Assembly: GCF_014652675.1 (NCBI RefSeq)
Contig: NZ_BMZG01000005.1
Coordinates: 1-64,000, forward strand
Direction of reading: 5' to 3'
Source: Formosimonas limnophila
GTDB lineage: Bacteria; Pseudomonadota; Gammaproteobacteria; Burkholderiales; Burkholderiaceae
Length of the DNA: 64,000 nucleotides
Positions 23,705 through 36,961 of the stretch are shown here, in pieces. The first letter of the stretch is position 1; each line of letters opens with the position of its first letter. The notes under the pieces are model-generated. The model did no database searches. It was not told the origin of the DNA and saw only the letters and a list, made by a program, of their open reading frames with translations. The translations under genes and the position numbers were made by a program.

Positions 23705-24184
23705 ATGCCCGAATGGCTCGCCACCACACTCACCTATTTTTCTCTACCACAAGTGGGCTTGCCTGCGATTTTTGCCGTTTCATTTTTATCAGCGACCGTT
23801 TTACCCATGGTGACAGAGCCTGTGCTGTTTGGCTTCGTCAAACTCAACCCAGATCAATTTTGGCTGGCCATTCTTGTGGCTACGACGGGTAACACCATGG
23901 GTGGCATGGTCACCTATTTCATGGGCTACGGTGCCAAAAAAGCCTTCGCCAAGGAAAAGCCCGTGATTCATTTGCGCTGGTTGCAACGATTGGGTGCCCC
24001 CGTTCTGCTGCTGTCATGGGTGCCTTTGATTGGCGATGCACTGTGCGCCATGGCAGGCTGGCTCAAGCTACCTTGGCGCGGTGTTTTGCTTTGGATGAGC
24101 GTGGGCAAGTTCATTCGTTTCGTGGTCATGACCGCTGCACTGCTGTGGATACCCGATGGATTTTGGCAATCATTTATGCACTAA
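23705..24184 (+). CDS. YqaA/DedA-family membrane protein
   Basis: A 159-residue inner-membrane protein with about four hydrophobic segments. It has the SFLSATVLPMVTEPVLFG and GNTMGGMVTYFMGYG stretches typical of the YqaA branch of the DedA (SNARE-associated) family. DedA proteins are linked to lipid carrier recycling and membrane homeostasis, but the role of the YqaA branch is not established. It stands alone between the divergent ilvA and the convergent gltD. Confidence 0.85.
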   Translation: MPEWLATTLTYFSLPQVGLPAIFAVSFLSATVLPMVTEPVLFGFVKLNPDQFWLAILVATTGNTMGGMVTYFMGYGAKKAFAKEKPVIHLRWLQRLGAPVLLLSWVPLIGDALCAMAGWLKLPWRGVLLWMSVGKFIRFVVMTAALLWIPDGFWQSFMH

Positions 24185-24211
24185 AGTGTGGCTTTTCGCT
24201 TAAAGCACATC

Positions 24212-24238
24212 AAAAAAAGGGTCACCCGAAGGCGACCC
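24212..24238 (-). terminator. Intrinsic terminator of gltD
   Basis: On the minus strand GGGTCGCC, a short loop, and GGGTGACCC are followed by T7. It lies about 50 bp after the gltD stop codon and just past the converging yqaA-like gene. Confidence 0.8.
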
Positions 24239-24288
24239 GAATCACACAAAGTAACTGTTTTAAAACCCTCCAAACCAACCTTCTTGGC

Positions 24289-25758
24289 CTACCAAGGTAA
24301 GTTGCTGCTACCCATCAACGTTTTATCCACTTCATACGCGGCTTGGCGACCCTCTTTAATCGCCCAAACAACCAAAGACTGCCCACGACGCACATCACCC
24401 GCAACAAATACTTTATCAACATTAGAGTGGTAAGCGGTGTCACCGACGGTTAGTGCGTTAGCATTGTTACGCGCGTCTTTATCCACGCCAAACGCGTCTA
24501 ACACAGCTTGTGCAGGATGCACAAAGCCCATCGCCAACAAAACCAAGTCTGCTTTGACGTCAAACTCGGAGCCTTCAGCTTCAACCATCTTTCCACCGAC
24601 AAACTCAATGCGAACGCACTGGAGTTTCTCGATTTTGCCATTTTTGCCGATGAAGGCTTTGGTGTTGACTGACCAATCACGTTCTACGCCTTCGTCGTGT
24701 GACGATGAGGTGCGCATTTTCATCGGCCAATATGGCCAAACCGATGTGACTGACTTGTCCTCCACATCGCGCGGACGCGGCATGACTTCAAACTGCGTGA
24801 TGGATTTCGCACCATGACGATTAGCAGTACCGACGCAGTCTGAGCCTGTATCACCGCCGCCGATGACGACAACGTGTTTGCCTGCGGCGTTAATCGGGTT
24901 GTCTCCGTCGCCTGCGTTGGTTTTGTTTTGTGGAATGAGCCATTCGAGGGCGAAGTGAATGCCTTTGAGATCGCGTCCTGGTGCGGGCAAGTCACGCGGC
25001 GTTTCAGAACCGATAGCGAGCACCACTGCATCGTATTTTTTTTTCAATTCATCGGCTGTGACAACGGTTTTGGCGTCGTTGGCGCAGCCTTGTGGATAGT
25101 CACCTGTGGCGATGGCGACGCCTGTTTTGAATGTCACGCCTTCGGCCTGCATTTGCCCCATACGGCGGTCAATGAGCCATTTTTCGAGTTTAAAATCAGG
25201 GATGCCGTAGCGCAGCAAACCACCAATGCGCGAATTTTTCTCATAAACCGTGACGTCGTGGCCTGCACGTGCAAGCTGCTGTGCACAGGCTAAACCTGCG
25301 GGGCCTGAGCCGACGACAGCAACTTTTTTGCCTGTTTTTTTCGCGGGGATTTCCGGGGTAATCCAGCCGTTCGCCCAGCCCTTATCAATGATGGCGTGTT
25401 CAATGGATTTGATGCCGACAGGATCGTTGTTGATATTGAGTGTGCAGGCGGCCTCACATGGTGCAGGGCAAATACGTCCAGTGAACTCGGGGAAGTTGTT
25501 GGTCAGTGACAATACAGCGAGCGCTGCTTGCCAGTCCTGCTGATACACGAGGTCATTAAAGTCAGGGATGATGTTGTTAATCGGACAACCATTATGACAA
25601 AACGGGATCCCACAATCCATACAACGCGACCCTTGCTTGGCGGCATCGCTGTCCGACAGCGCGTAGAGAAACTCTTTGTAGTGTTTAACGCGCGACTCCG
25701 GTGCTTCATAGGTGGGGGTTAAACGCTCTTGCTCTAAGAACCCAGTGATTTTACCCAT
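24289..25758 (-). CDS. gltD: Glutamate synthase, small subunit
   Basis: The beta subunit of NADPH-dependent GOGAT passes electrons from NADPH through FAD to the large subunit. It is 489 residues from [13 protein letters not shown]. The N-terminal cysteine clusters [14 protein letters not shown] and CPAPCEAAC bind [4Fe-4S] centres. [21 protein letters not shown] binds FAD and [12 protein letters not shown] binds NADPH. AAGGAG is spaced 6 nt before the second ATG, favouring 25758 over 25761. It follows gltB after 93 bp, with a terminator-like hairpin in between. Confidence 0.97.
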
Positions 25759-31661: not shown

Positions 31662-31755
31662 CAGGCGTATCGCCTCCCCTGCTTTTCCTCCCTAAGCAGG
31701 GTGGTCATTCATAATGACGTTATTCCCCAAGTCCTTGGACTTGGGGCTTTTTTTT
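31662..31755 (+). ncRNA. Predicted small regulatory RNA with anti-Shine-Dalgarno loop
   Basis: About 93 nt from a perfect promoter to an intrinsic terminator, with no plausible reading frame. Four hairpins follow one another: AGGCG/CGCCT (31663-31675, 3-nt loop); CCCTGCTT/AAGCAGGG (31677-31701, loop TTCCTCCCT); GTCAT/ATGAC (31704-31718); and the terminator CCCCAAGTC/GACTTGGGG (31725-31746) with T8. The second loop is complementary to AGGGAGGAA, so it could pair with ribosome binding sites. Alphaproteobacterial cuckoo RNAs expose a comparable CCUCC-rich loop; whether this is homologous or convergent is unknown. I do not recognise it as 4.5S, 6S, tmRNA or RNase P RNA. Confidence 0.78.
31725..31755 (+). 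terminator. Intrinsic terminator of the small RNA
   Basis: 9-bp perfect stem CCCCAAGTC / GACTTGGGG with a CTTG loop, followed one base later by T8. A long terminal U-run is also typical of Hfq-bound small RNAs. Confidence 0.92.
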
Positions 31756-33383: not shown

Positions 33384-35495
33384 TTAAATTTCAGCGGGGT
33401 CAACCTCAACAAACCATGTTAATCGGCTTTTGAGCTGTGTCAACGCAGCCTGCCAATGCGGCAAAAAAGCCTGCAGTTTGCTGCGTTGCGGGGATTCAAT
33501 GAGGAGTTGGGCGCGTTCTTGGGCATTTTTTCGCATCATTTGCATGGGGACGGCAGCGTTGATGGTGAGGGTGTCGAACCCATGCTCATCGATGATGTTA
33601 AGAGCAGCGGTGCGAGCAGCGTTGGCGAACTCTAACGCATCCTTGATACGAGGAGCGGCCACTTGTAAGAGAGCATGGGCCGCGAATGGGGGCAAACCAA
33701 GCTGGGCGCGCACAGCGAGCTCGTCAGCAGCAAAAGATTCATAATCGTGGGCCAAAATGTGTCGCCAAAGTGGGTGCTCAGGGAAGGTGGTTTGGATGAT
33801 GACGTGGCCTGCGTGTTGGCCACGGCCTGCACGACCGATGACTTGCTGCAGCTGGGCGAAAAGTCGCTCAGGCGCGCGGTAGTCTTGGGCAAATAGGCCG
33901 CCATCGACGTCGAGGACACCGACCGTGGTGAGGTTTGGCCAGTCGTGCCCCTTGGCAAGCATTTGCGTACCGATGATGATGTCCACTTCACCTGCTGCGA
34001 TGTCGGCAAGCTGGGTTTCTAATTGTCCCTTTTTGCGGGTGATGTCGGCGTCGATGCGACGCACGCGAGCGGCTTTCCAGTGATTTTGTACAGTTTCTTC
34101 GAGACGCTGCGTGCCTTGACCTACGGGAAGTAAATCTGCATTGCCGCAACTGGCGCAGGCTTTCGGTACACGCTTTTGTGTGCCACAGTGGTGGCAGTGC
34201 AGGAGACGCGTGGTTTGATGATAGACCATGTGCGCGGAGCAGGCGGTGCAATCATTGACCGCACCGCAATGGCCGCAGTAAAGCACAGGCGCGTAACCAC
34301 GTCGATTTTGGAACAACAGAGAGGTTTTTCCTGCGGCAAGGGTTTTGTCAATCACGCTTCTCAGCGCTGTGGATAAACCGTCCATCATGATGGTTTTGTT
34401 GGTATCCACCAATTGCACCGCAGGTGGTTTCGCACCGCTGATGGCGCGCTGACGTAGGATATGCAAGCCGTATTTGCCTGTTTGTGCGGCATGCCATGTT
34501 TCAAGAGAGGGCGTCGCGCTGCCAAGAATGATGGGGATGTTGAGCTGATGCGCACGATAGATGGCAACATCACGCGCAGAATAACGCACCCCTTCTTGCT
34601 GACGATAGGAGCTGTCGTGCTCTTCGTCCACAACGATGGCCGCCAAATTCGGTAATTGGGTCAAAATCGACAGTCGTGTGCCCAAGATCACCCGTGCATG
34701 CCCGCTACTGGCACGCCAGAAATTAACCAGCCTCGTCGATTCGTTGAGTTTGCTGTGTAGACTCACCACCGCATCATCACCAAAACGAGCCGTCAATCGA
34801 GCATAAAACTGTGGCGTGAGGTTAATCTCAGGGACGAGCACAAGGACTTGTGCGTCAGGATGATTGGCAAGAACCCCCGCAAGGTATTGCAAATAAATCT
34901 CAGTTTTACCACTGCCCGTAATGCCAAATAAAAGTTGCGGCGATTGGCGTGGTGCTTGGGCCGCTTGAGTCAATTGCGCCAAAACACGCTCTTGCTCCTC
35001 AGAGAGCAACAACCCTGCGGACAAACTCAATGGCGCAGGCGCAACAGACATCGCTTGCCATTTTTTCCATGCTTGCTTACCCACACCAAGGCTCAATCTA
35101 CCGTCAACCTCCTGAAATTGACTCGCTGTGCGCAGTGCTGTCGGCAGCGCAGGCAGGGCAACCTCACCCAAGCCACGCTGATAATACCGCGCCATAAACC
35201 GTATCAACTGCAGCCACATACCATCCGCACGTGGCACGAATGCCAAAACAGCACTAATGGCTTTGAGTTTGTCAGCAGGCACATCCGTCTGTGCGGCATG
35301 ACCAACCACCCAACCAACCACCTGTTGACGGCCAAAAGAAACCAAAACGGCACGGCCAAGCCAATCATCGGGAGATGACCACTCGACTTCGCAAGGGGCG
35401 TAATCAAACACGCCCGTATTTGATACAGAGACAGGGACATCAAGGGCGACTTGCAGCACCCATTGGGATGAGGTGGATTTTAAGATGGGTGACAT
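33384..35495 (-). CDS. priA: Primosomal helicase PriA
   Basis: PriA is a 3'-5' superfamily 2 helicase that reloads the replisome at stalled forks. The protein is 703 residues from MSPILKSTSSQWVLQV. The Walker A LLFGITGSGKTEIYLQYL and the DEEH box VDEEHDSSYRQQEG are present. The zinc-binding region has paired cysteines in CGHCGAVNDCTAC, CHHCG and CASCGN. The frame is open to a TTG at 35519, but the ATG at 35495 is the better start. Upstream, toward hemE, is a cluster of DnaA boxes. Confidence 0.95.
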   Translation of the reverse strand: MSPILKSTSSQWVLQVALDVPVSVSNTGVFDYAPCEVEWSSPDDWLGRAVLVSFGRQQVVGWVVGHAAQTDVPADKLKAISAVLAFVPRADGMWLQLIRFMARYYQRGLGEVALPALPTALRTASQFQEVDGRLSLGVGKQAWKKWQAMSVAPAPLSLSAGLLLSEEQERVLAQLTQAAQAPRQSPQLLFGITGSGKTEIYLQYLAGVLANHPDAQVLVLVPEINLTPQFYARLTARFGDDAVVSLHSKLNESTRLVNFWRASSGHARVILGTRLSILTQLPNLAAIVVDEEHDSSYRQQEGVRYSARDVAIYRAHQLNIPIILGSATPSLETWHAAQTGKYGLHILRQRAISGAKPPAVQLVDTNKTIMMDGLSTALRSVIDKTLAAGKTSLLFQNRRGYAPVLYCGHCGAVNDCTACSAHMVYHQTTRLLHCHHCGTQKRVPKACASCGNADLLPVGQGTQRLEETVQNHWKAARVRRIDADITRKKGQLETQLADIAAGEVDIIIGTQMLAKGHDWPNLTTVGVLDVDGGLFAQDYRAPERLFAQLQQVIGRAGRGQHAGHVIIQTTFPEHPLWRHILAHDYESFAADELAVRAQLGLPPFAAHALLQVAAPRIKDALEFANAARTAALNIIDEHGFDTLTINAAVPMQMMRKNAQERAQLLIESPQRSKLQAFLPHWQAALTQLKSRLTWFVEVDPAEI

Positions 35496-35589
35496 TTCGT
35501 GGTGGACAACCGCAGCCAAGTTAGCCTGACTTGTTGAATCTCAATTTAACTAATTCACTTAAGTACCCGTTTTATAAGGACTTTTTGCG

Positions 35590-35862
35590 TTACCCACAAA
35601 ACCTGTGGATAACTGTGTGCATAAGCCGTGAAAAAGTGGGGTAAACCGCGTCAAATCAGGCATTTTCTTAGAGTGCTCAAATTTTACACAATTACGAAAA
35701 AGCTTATTTATCAATAACTTACAATCTAAAACGGCCATCAAGGAGGCTCATCACTCGCCAAAGCCCACCGTTGCGCTGCCTGCGGGAAACTGTGGGTAAG
35801 TCAAGCATTCTTTTATGAATTTTATGATGTATTTTTCATAAAATCATAAAAAATCTCACAGC
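35590..35862. other. DnaA-box cluster with adjoining AT-rich stretch (origin-like)
   Basis: Two sites match TTATNCACA exactly: TGTGGATAA (35604-35612) and TGTGCATAA (35616-35624), both on the minus strand. Three differ by one base: TTACCCACA (35590-35598), TTTTACACA (35682-35690) and TGTGGGTAA (35791-35799). From 35810 to 35862 the DNA is very AT-rich with repeated TTTTATGA and its complement, like a duplex-unwinding element. The region is free of genes, between hemE and priA. It could be the replication origin, a secondary DnaA-binding site, or a DnaA-controlled promoter region. dnaA itself is not in the window. Confidence 0.5.
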
Positions 35863-35875
35863 AAAGCATCATGGC

Positions 35876-36961
35876 TTATAGGGGAGTCGCCACACGCGAG
35901 CTTCGGCTGTAAGTGTGCACTTCGTCCACCAAAATTTTCACTGCCTCAGGATCGGTGAATTGGGAAATACCATGACCTAAATTAAACACATGCCCCACAT
36001 GCGGTCCGAAACCATCGAGCACACGCTGCACCTCTGCACGAAGATTTTTCTCTGAACCAAACAAAACAGATGGGTCTAAATTGCCCTGTAAAGCCACTTT
36101 GTGCCCGACCCGTGCCCTCGCTTGGGCAATATCGGTTGCCCAATCCAGCCCCAAAGCATCCGCACCACTGTCAGCCATCTGCTCGAGCCACTGACCGCCA
36201 CCTTTGGTGAACACAATCACTGGAATCTGTTCACCATTGTGCTCGCGGTTTAACCCCGCCATCACCTGACGCATATACGCCAGCGAAAATGCCTCATAAC
36301 TGCTGCCAGACAGCGAACCACCCCATGTATCAAAAATCATCACGGCTTGCGCCCCAGCAGCGATTTGGGCATTCAGATACGCCGTGGTTGCACGCGCATT
36401 GACCATCAAAATATGATGCAATAAGTCAGGGCGGCGATACATCATGGTCTTAATCGTGCGAAACTCCTTCGACGAGCCCCCCTCAACCATATAACAGGCA
36501 ATCGTGTAAGGACTGCCCGCAAAACCAATCAACGGCACGCGCCCTTGCAACGACGTACGAATCTTAGCCACCGCATCAAACACATACTGGAGCTTGCCCA
36601 TGTCGGGCACTTCCAGACGCTGTACCGCCATCTCGTCTTGCAATGGACGGTCAAACACAGGACCTTCGCCCTCAACAAAGCGCAAACCGAGCCCCATCGC
36701 ATCAGGCACGGTCAAGATATCGCTGAATAAAATCGCCGCATCCAGCCCATAACGGTCAATCGGCTGCAACGTCACCTCCGTGGCCATCGCAGGACTCATC
36801 GCTAACTGCATAAAACTGCCGGCCCGCGCCCGCGTCGCGCGATACTCAGGCAAATACCGTCCTGCTTGGCGCATCAACCAAACAGGCGTGTGCGTCGTGC
36901 TCTGGCGACGCAAGGCGCGTAAAAAAGTGTCGTTTTGTAACGGGGCGAAAGAAGACATCAT
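35876..36961 (-). CDS. hemE: Uroporphyrinogen decarboxylase
   Basis: It removes four carboxyl groups from uroporphyrinogen III to give coproporphyrinogen III in haem synthesis. The protein is about 361 residues from [19 protein letters not shown]. The signature [17 protein letters not shown] lies near residue 25, with [12 protein letters not shown] and [17 protein letters not shown] following. I use 36961 (36958 is equally possible); the open frame to 37021 adds a non-conserved leader. No strong ribosome binding site is visible. It reads toward the DnaA-box region and priA. Confidence 0.95.

Follow-up and report, generated by a model that had tools for sequence, protein, structure and literature searches.

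The spacer between hemE and priA in Formosimonas limnophila carries a cluster of five DnaA boxes. This cluster is real and far above chance, and it is not the chromosomal origin. Three of the boxes stand in the fixed spacing and orientation of a DARS core, preceded by a perfect match to the IHF consensus and by a distal DnaA box. The same module recurs in related bacteria at a second place, between xseA and exbB. On balance, we favour reading it as a non-origin DnaA-control element of the DARS kind, which would recharge ADP-DnaA to ATP-DnaA with the help of IHF. Such an element probably helps to set the timing of the start of chromosome replication.

Most of what is known about the recharging of DnaA comes from E. 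coli. The present analysis places a DARS-core element, with an IHF site at a precise position, at two named betaproteobacterial loci, where it is open to deletion or relocation. Reviews already mention DARS-like sequences or spacings in other proteobacteria (PMC5742627, PMC10380432), and conservation of the DARS2 core is described for the gammaproteobacterial relatives of E. coli (PMC4245941). Our literature search found no report of the hemE-priA or xseA-exbB loci, nor of the layout with box A, IHF at -97 and the triad; the supplement of Fujimitsu et al. 2009 may list betaproteobacterial loci.

The DnaA box cluster in the hemE-priA spacer

The window, i.e. the whole stretch of 64,000 nucleotides that was analysed, contains the spacer with its two flanking genes on the same strand (Table 1), in agreement with the first-pass annotation of this DNA, which had noted no clear strand switch there. 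A site scan also confirmed the two exact and three one-mismatch DnaA boxes that it had counted in 210 bp. All five sites lie inside 35590-35799, and both exact TTATNCACA sites are on the minus strand. Read on that strand, the triad (35590-35624) consists of box III, 3 nt, box II, 5 nt and an inverted box I. Neither this fixed spacing nor the IHF site had been picked up in the first pass.

Table 1. Features of the hemE-priA region, in window coordinates
Feature	Coordinates	Strand	Remarks
hemE-priA spacer, carrier of the element	35496..35875 (380 bp)	-	Both flanking genes on the - strand
priA (primosomal helicase), downstream neighbour	33384..35495	-	Start codon chosen by us
hemE (uroporphyrinogen decarboxylase), upstream neighbour	35876..36958	-	Start codon chosen by us
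DnaA box I of the DARS-like core	35590..35598	+	TTACCCACA, one mismatch; inverted relative to II and III; +26 from box III
DnaA box II	35604..35612	-	TTATCCACA, exact; +12 from box III
DnaA box III	35616..35624	-	TTATGCACA, exact
Extra DnaA box	35682..35690	+	TTTTACACA, one mismatch; left end -66 from box III
IHF consensus site, perfect	35709..35721	-	TAAGTTATTGATA; start 97 bp 5' of box III
Distal DnaA box A	35791..35799	-	TTACCCACA, one mismatch; start 175 bp 5' of box III
AT-rich run	35807..35856	.	TTTTATGA repeats; imperfect hairpin just after hemE

Isolated DnaA boxes carry little weight, because the total in the window is near background (71 sites at up to one mismatch versus 57.8 expected). 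The Poisson chance of five boxes in 210 bp is about 5e-6 per stretch and about 0.0014 across the window. The spaced triad is found once in the window and in none of 100 shuffles. Another group of five DnaA-like sites, each with one mismatch and spread over about 340 bp (24144-24487), lies mostly in a coding frame and is without the triad spacing; it looks like a chance cluster. The extra box at -66 is present in the spacers of five of the six genomes of the genus and is not general. The 50-bp AT-rich run already pointed out in the first pass is real, with A or T at 43 of its 50 bases, and it is the sole 50-mer of the window that is so AT-rich. It folds as an imperfect hairpin (z -2.4). This run was not seen in the five congeners or the four other loci whose stretches were inspected, and it probably lies outside the conserved element.

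No Rfam family was found at gathering threshold in the spacer of the window or in that of 10 relatives, and a search for plasmid relatives gave no distant match to the spacer among 72,556 plasmid records. Elsewhere in the window, positions 31675-31755 match the anti-hemB sRNA family RF02837, barely above the gathering score. In Mycetohabitans (L072:3129-3349), the sRNA family Bp1_781 (RF02423) is found immediately 5' to hemE and on the other strand.

Conservation of the element and its second locus

A total of 86 HemE loci were considered, 6 from the genus and 80 from public genome contigs. The priA gene is downstream in 64 of them; the 22 loci without a detected priA, some perhaps because the stretch ends, were dropped. 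As to the conservation of the boxes in relatives, which the first pass had proposed to check, the triad is present in 44 of the 64 hemE-priA spacers, as one copy in 26, two in 14 and three in 4, giving 66 units in total, so that 18 of the 44 carry it in tandem. A stricter pattern (two mismatches) was detected in 38 of the 64 spacers, with no hit on the opposite strand and none for the reversed control. One genus alone shows natural variation in the copy number of the element, from one to three. In Herbaspirillum-like genomes the duplication appears to be old, since copies 1 and 2 are no more alike within a genome (identity 0.57, 8 genomes) than between genomes (0.58 and 0.61).

In most of the 20 hemE-priA spacers without a full triad, box A is retained together with a box II at its normal distance. 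Cupriavidus-type spacers have kept the IHF site and lost box I, and Paraburkholderia-type spacers have lost both. The triad is thus not universal, box I being absent from spacers of the Burkholderia and Cupriavidus types although box A and box II remain.

Between box A and the triad, the units share a strongly conserved block, TAAGTCATTGATT, which fits the IHF consensus TAAnnnnTTGATW (PMC4245941). The best IHF match in the 190 bp upstream has at most one mismatch in 53 of the 66 units. Of these matches, 50 share one orientation and begin 96 to 98 bp ahead of box III, and the other 3 lie on the opposite strand at different positions. A perfect site is found in 22 of the 66 units versus 12 of 1320 shuffled segments. 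Box A lies inside 150-192 bp in 63 of the 66 units, which are those used for the alignment. In a comparison across loci that covered cores at least 235 bp from a locus end, box A is located at -162 to -167 or -171 to -176 in most hemE-priA units. The two favoured distances, around -165 and -175, seem to differ by one helical turn. The pooled resultant is 0.37 (125 sites, weighted by locus), or 0.17 for distinct offsets, and we do not claim phasing of box A because this pooled test is weak. In the genus of the window, ihfA is present in all six genomes, and a match to Hda was found in all six, five of them above the cut-off.

The core pattern was found in 126 of 150 Burkholderiales genomes (in the GTDB sense) and in 90 of 114 class-level genomes, with no hit for the reversed pattern in either set; the sequences being related, such counts of recurrence are not independent trials. 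Neighbouring genes in the Burkholderiales set were counted among the matches listed, i.e. 150 places in 82 of the 126 genomes. Among these, 33 cores in 31 genomes are 64 to 1218 bp upstream of a PriA match, all on the priA strand. Forty of the 117 listed cores not near priA were fetched together with their neighbourhood, and at 31 of these 40 loci the core is flanked by a divergent xseA (encoding the large subunit of exonuclease VII); exbB and exbD lie on the opposite side in many of them. The 40 loci comprise 41 cores, of which 18 show an IHF match at -96 to -100 in the expected orientation, none in the other orientation, and 13 a box A at -164 to -167. At class level, where 27 cores were scored with the same 235-bp limit, 12 have the IHF match at -96 to -100, and 16 box-A matches are at -176 to -181.

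The xseA copy is absent from the genus of the window (none in six genomes, at up to 7 mismatches over flanks of about 1.5 kb either way, shorter in one genome), and no second core was found in F. limnophila at up to two mismatches. The IHF-to-box spacing pattern occurs at five places in this genome, four of them besides hemE-priA, and the backward pattern at none. Two near-identical stretches at contig ends that match the IHF-to-box pattern, in G000 (contig 14:50-154 and contig 21:8-112), look like a repeat that breaks the assembly. The congener G002 has a second core with IHF at the usual distance outside hemE-priA (contig 26, 223141-223272). In G068 (contig 1, 249536-250482), six DARS-like cores form an array within 950 bp on one strand, away from priA, and the class-level genome G198 has six cores on its contigs 12 and 13, all on the forward strand of the contig.

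Comparison with the DnaA-control elements of E. coli

In E. coli, the boxes of DARS1 and DARS2 have the same spacing, with box I opposite to II and III (PMC5742627). Their offsets in the MG1655 strain (0, +12 and +26, the last box inverted) are identical to those of the window triad. Like DARS1 (bioD-uvrB) and DARS2 (rppH-mutH), the window element is intergenic and outside oriC. Across the loci analysed, this kind of element differs by its IHF start at -97 instead of the -87 of DARS2, by the direct box A at about -165 or -175, by its neighbours, hemE-priA or xseA-exbB, and by its frequent occurrence in tandem. With DARS2 it shares an IHF site that lies on the side of box III and is oriented alike. 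In E. coli DARS2, a gap of 3 bp separates two IHF-like sequences (2229-2241 and 2245-2257 of L131), in agreement with the published separation of IBS1-2 (PMC4245941); the one oriented as in the window starts at -87 from box III. As the corresponding distance is -96 to -98 in the units analysed here, the element is not filed as DARS2 itself. Fis sites are also required in E. coli DARS2.

The resemblance to E. coli datA (glyVXY-queG) is of another nature. There, a perfect IHF sequence stands at -97 from a box, with further boxes at -162 and -174, in the same orientations as here; these offsets were computed from coordinates, and the identities of the datA boxes were assigned from sequence and text rather than from a figure. 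The geometry of datA box 2, IHF and box 3 is found in the window element. Its tandem distal boxes 7 and 2 and its inverted box 4 at +12 are not: the window has a single box A and a direct box at +12. As judged from the arrangement of its sites, the element combines a DARS triad with datA-like IHF and distal-box distances.

We favour a DARS-like over a datA-like role because the triad is the defining and most specific feature of DARS. By analogy with E. coli, DnaA and IHF would bind at the predicted sites. The IHF and distal-box distances fit datA better than DARS2, so that the direction of the nucleotide switch is inferred from the same organism. In such a scheme, ADP-DnaA would assemble on boxes III, II and inverted I, with a head-to-head contact between the molecules on boxes I and II. 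IHF, 97 bp away, would bend the DNA and bring DnaA on box A against the triad complex. ADP could then be released, and the apo-DnaA would rebind ATP, which is abundant. The resulting rise in initiation-competent ATP-DnaA would precede the next round at oriC.

A datA-like function, in which a loop of box A, IHF and box III would stimulate hydrolysis of DnaA-bound ATP and so switch DnaA off after initiation, seems rather unlikely to us. The position of box A in most units and the Cupriavidus-type spacers, where box A, IHF and box II are kept and box I is lost, are consistent with it. However, datA is devoid of the I-II-III triad, the most specific part of the element, and its inverted +12 box is opposed to a direct one here. 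Speculatively, and with little confidence, box A, IHF and the triad could form a composite and perhaps ancestral DnaA switch of Beta- and Gammaproteobacteria, uniting the datA geometry with the DARS core. E. coli datA might then be a specialised descendant without the triad, and DARS2 another, in which IHF has shifted by one turn, box A has disappeared and Fis has taken over. A single site gated by IHF could, in most of these bacteria, act in both directions, inactivating DnaA as well as recharging it.

We consider improbable that the boxes merely titrate DnaA passively or belong to a DnaA-regulated priA promoter. Their abundance, with up to three tandem units, would suit titration, and a location upstream of priA in the priA orientation, observed for each of the 33 cores of this kind among the matches listed, would suit a promoter. 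Titration, however, needs neither a fixed spacing nor a fixed IHF site. As for the promoter, the module does not follow priA, since it is also present at xseA-exbB and elsewhere, its distance to the PriA match is as variable as indicated above, and a scan confined to sigma-70-like promoters found none in 35380-36000. The first-pass annotation had put forward a titration site or a DnaA-regulated region as its second choice. The idea of a DnaA-binding control site comes close to the DARS-like reading favoured here, whereas the DARS-core spacing and the IHF site at a fixed distance, which recur in Beta- and Gammaproteobacteria, go beyond titration.

Position relative to the replication origin

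Betaproteobacterial origins are normally located beside dnaA and dnaN. In Caulobacter the origin is beside hemE, an analogy cited by the first-pass annotation, which recognised the layout of a bacterial origin in the cluster. The hemE neighbour, and DnaA boxes adjoining the most AT-rich 50-mer of the window, do recall an oriC, but an origin at this place is extremely improbable given a canonical dnaA-dnaN box cluster elsewhere in the same genome, the skew minimum at dnaA in a congener, the long and variable distances to dnaA, and an AT-rich run unseen in the congeners inspected. Neither the skew minimum of the congener, nor adjacency to dnaA/dnaN, nor a conserved AT-rich unwinding element was found at the hemE-priA cluster.

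The F. limnophila genome is a draft of 2.22 Mb in 55 contigs, with dnaA on contig C6 and the window on C5. Four exact boxes are present in 175 bp of the dnaA-dnaN gap, in the order rpmH-dnaA-[boxes]-dnaN-gyrB, with parB nearby; dnaA was named by its Pfam family and its neighbours by inspection of their translations. Within the window, no skew switch was seen at 35.6 kb. The chromosome-wide skew, which the first pass had suggested as a check together with the location of dnaA/dnaN, was followed in the complete congener G004 through 20 sampled stretches covering 310 kb of 2.72 Mb, and both checks speak against an origin at hemE-priA. In these samples, dnaA (412.7 kb) is where the skew switches sign, with mostly negative values to one side and positive values to the other, and the interpolated cumulative skew has its minimum at about 395 kb and its maximum at about 1.72 Mb. 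The hemE-priA element of this genome is at 2653 kb, 483 kb from dnaA, with no lasting sign change of the skew in the surrounding 20 kb. Clusters of DnaA boxes next to hemE call for a skew test before they are named an origin. Among the other genomes in a single contig, the distance between dnaA and the element near priA is about 94 kb (G019), 1.1 Mb (G016) or 1.6 Mb (G066). Because these distances differ so much between genomes, the position of the element tracks the neighbouring genes and not the origin.
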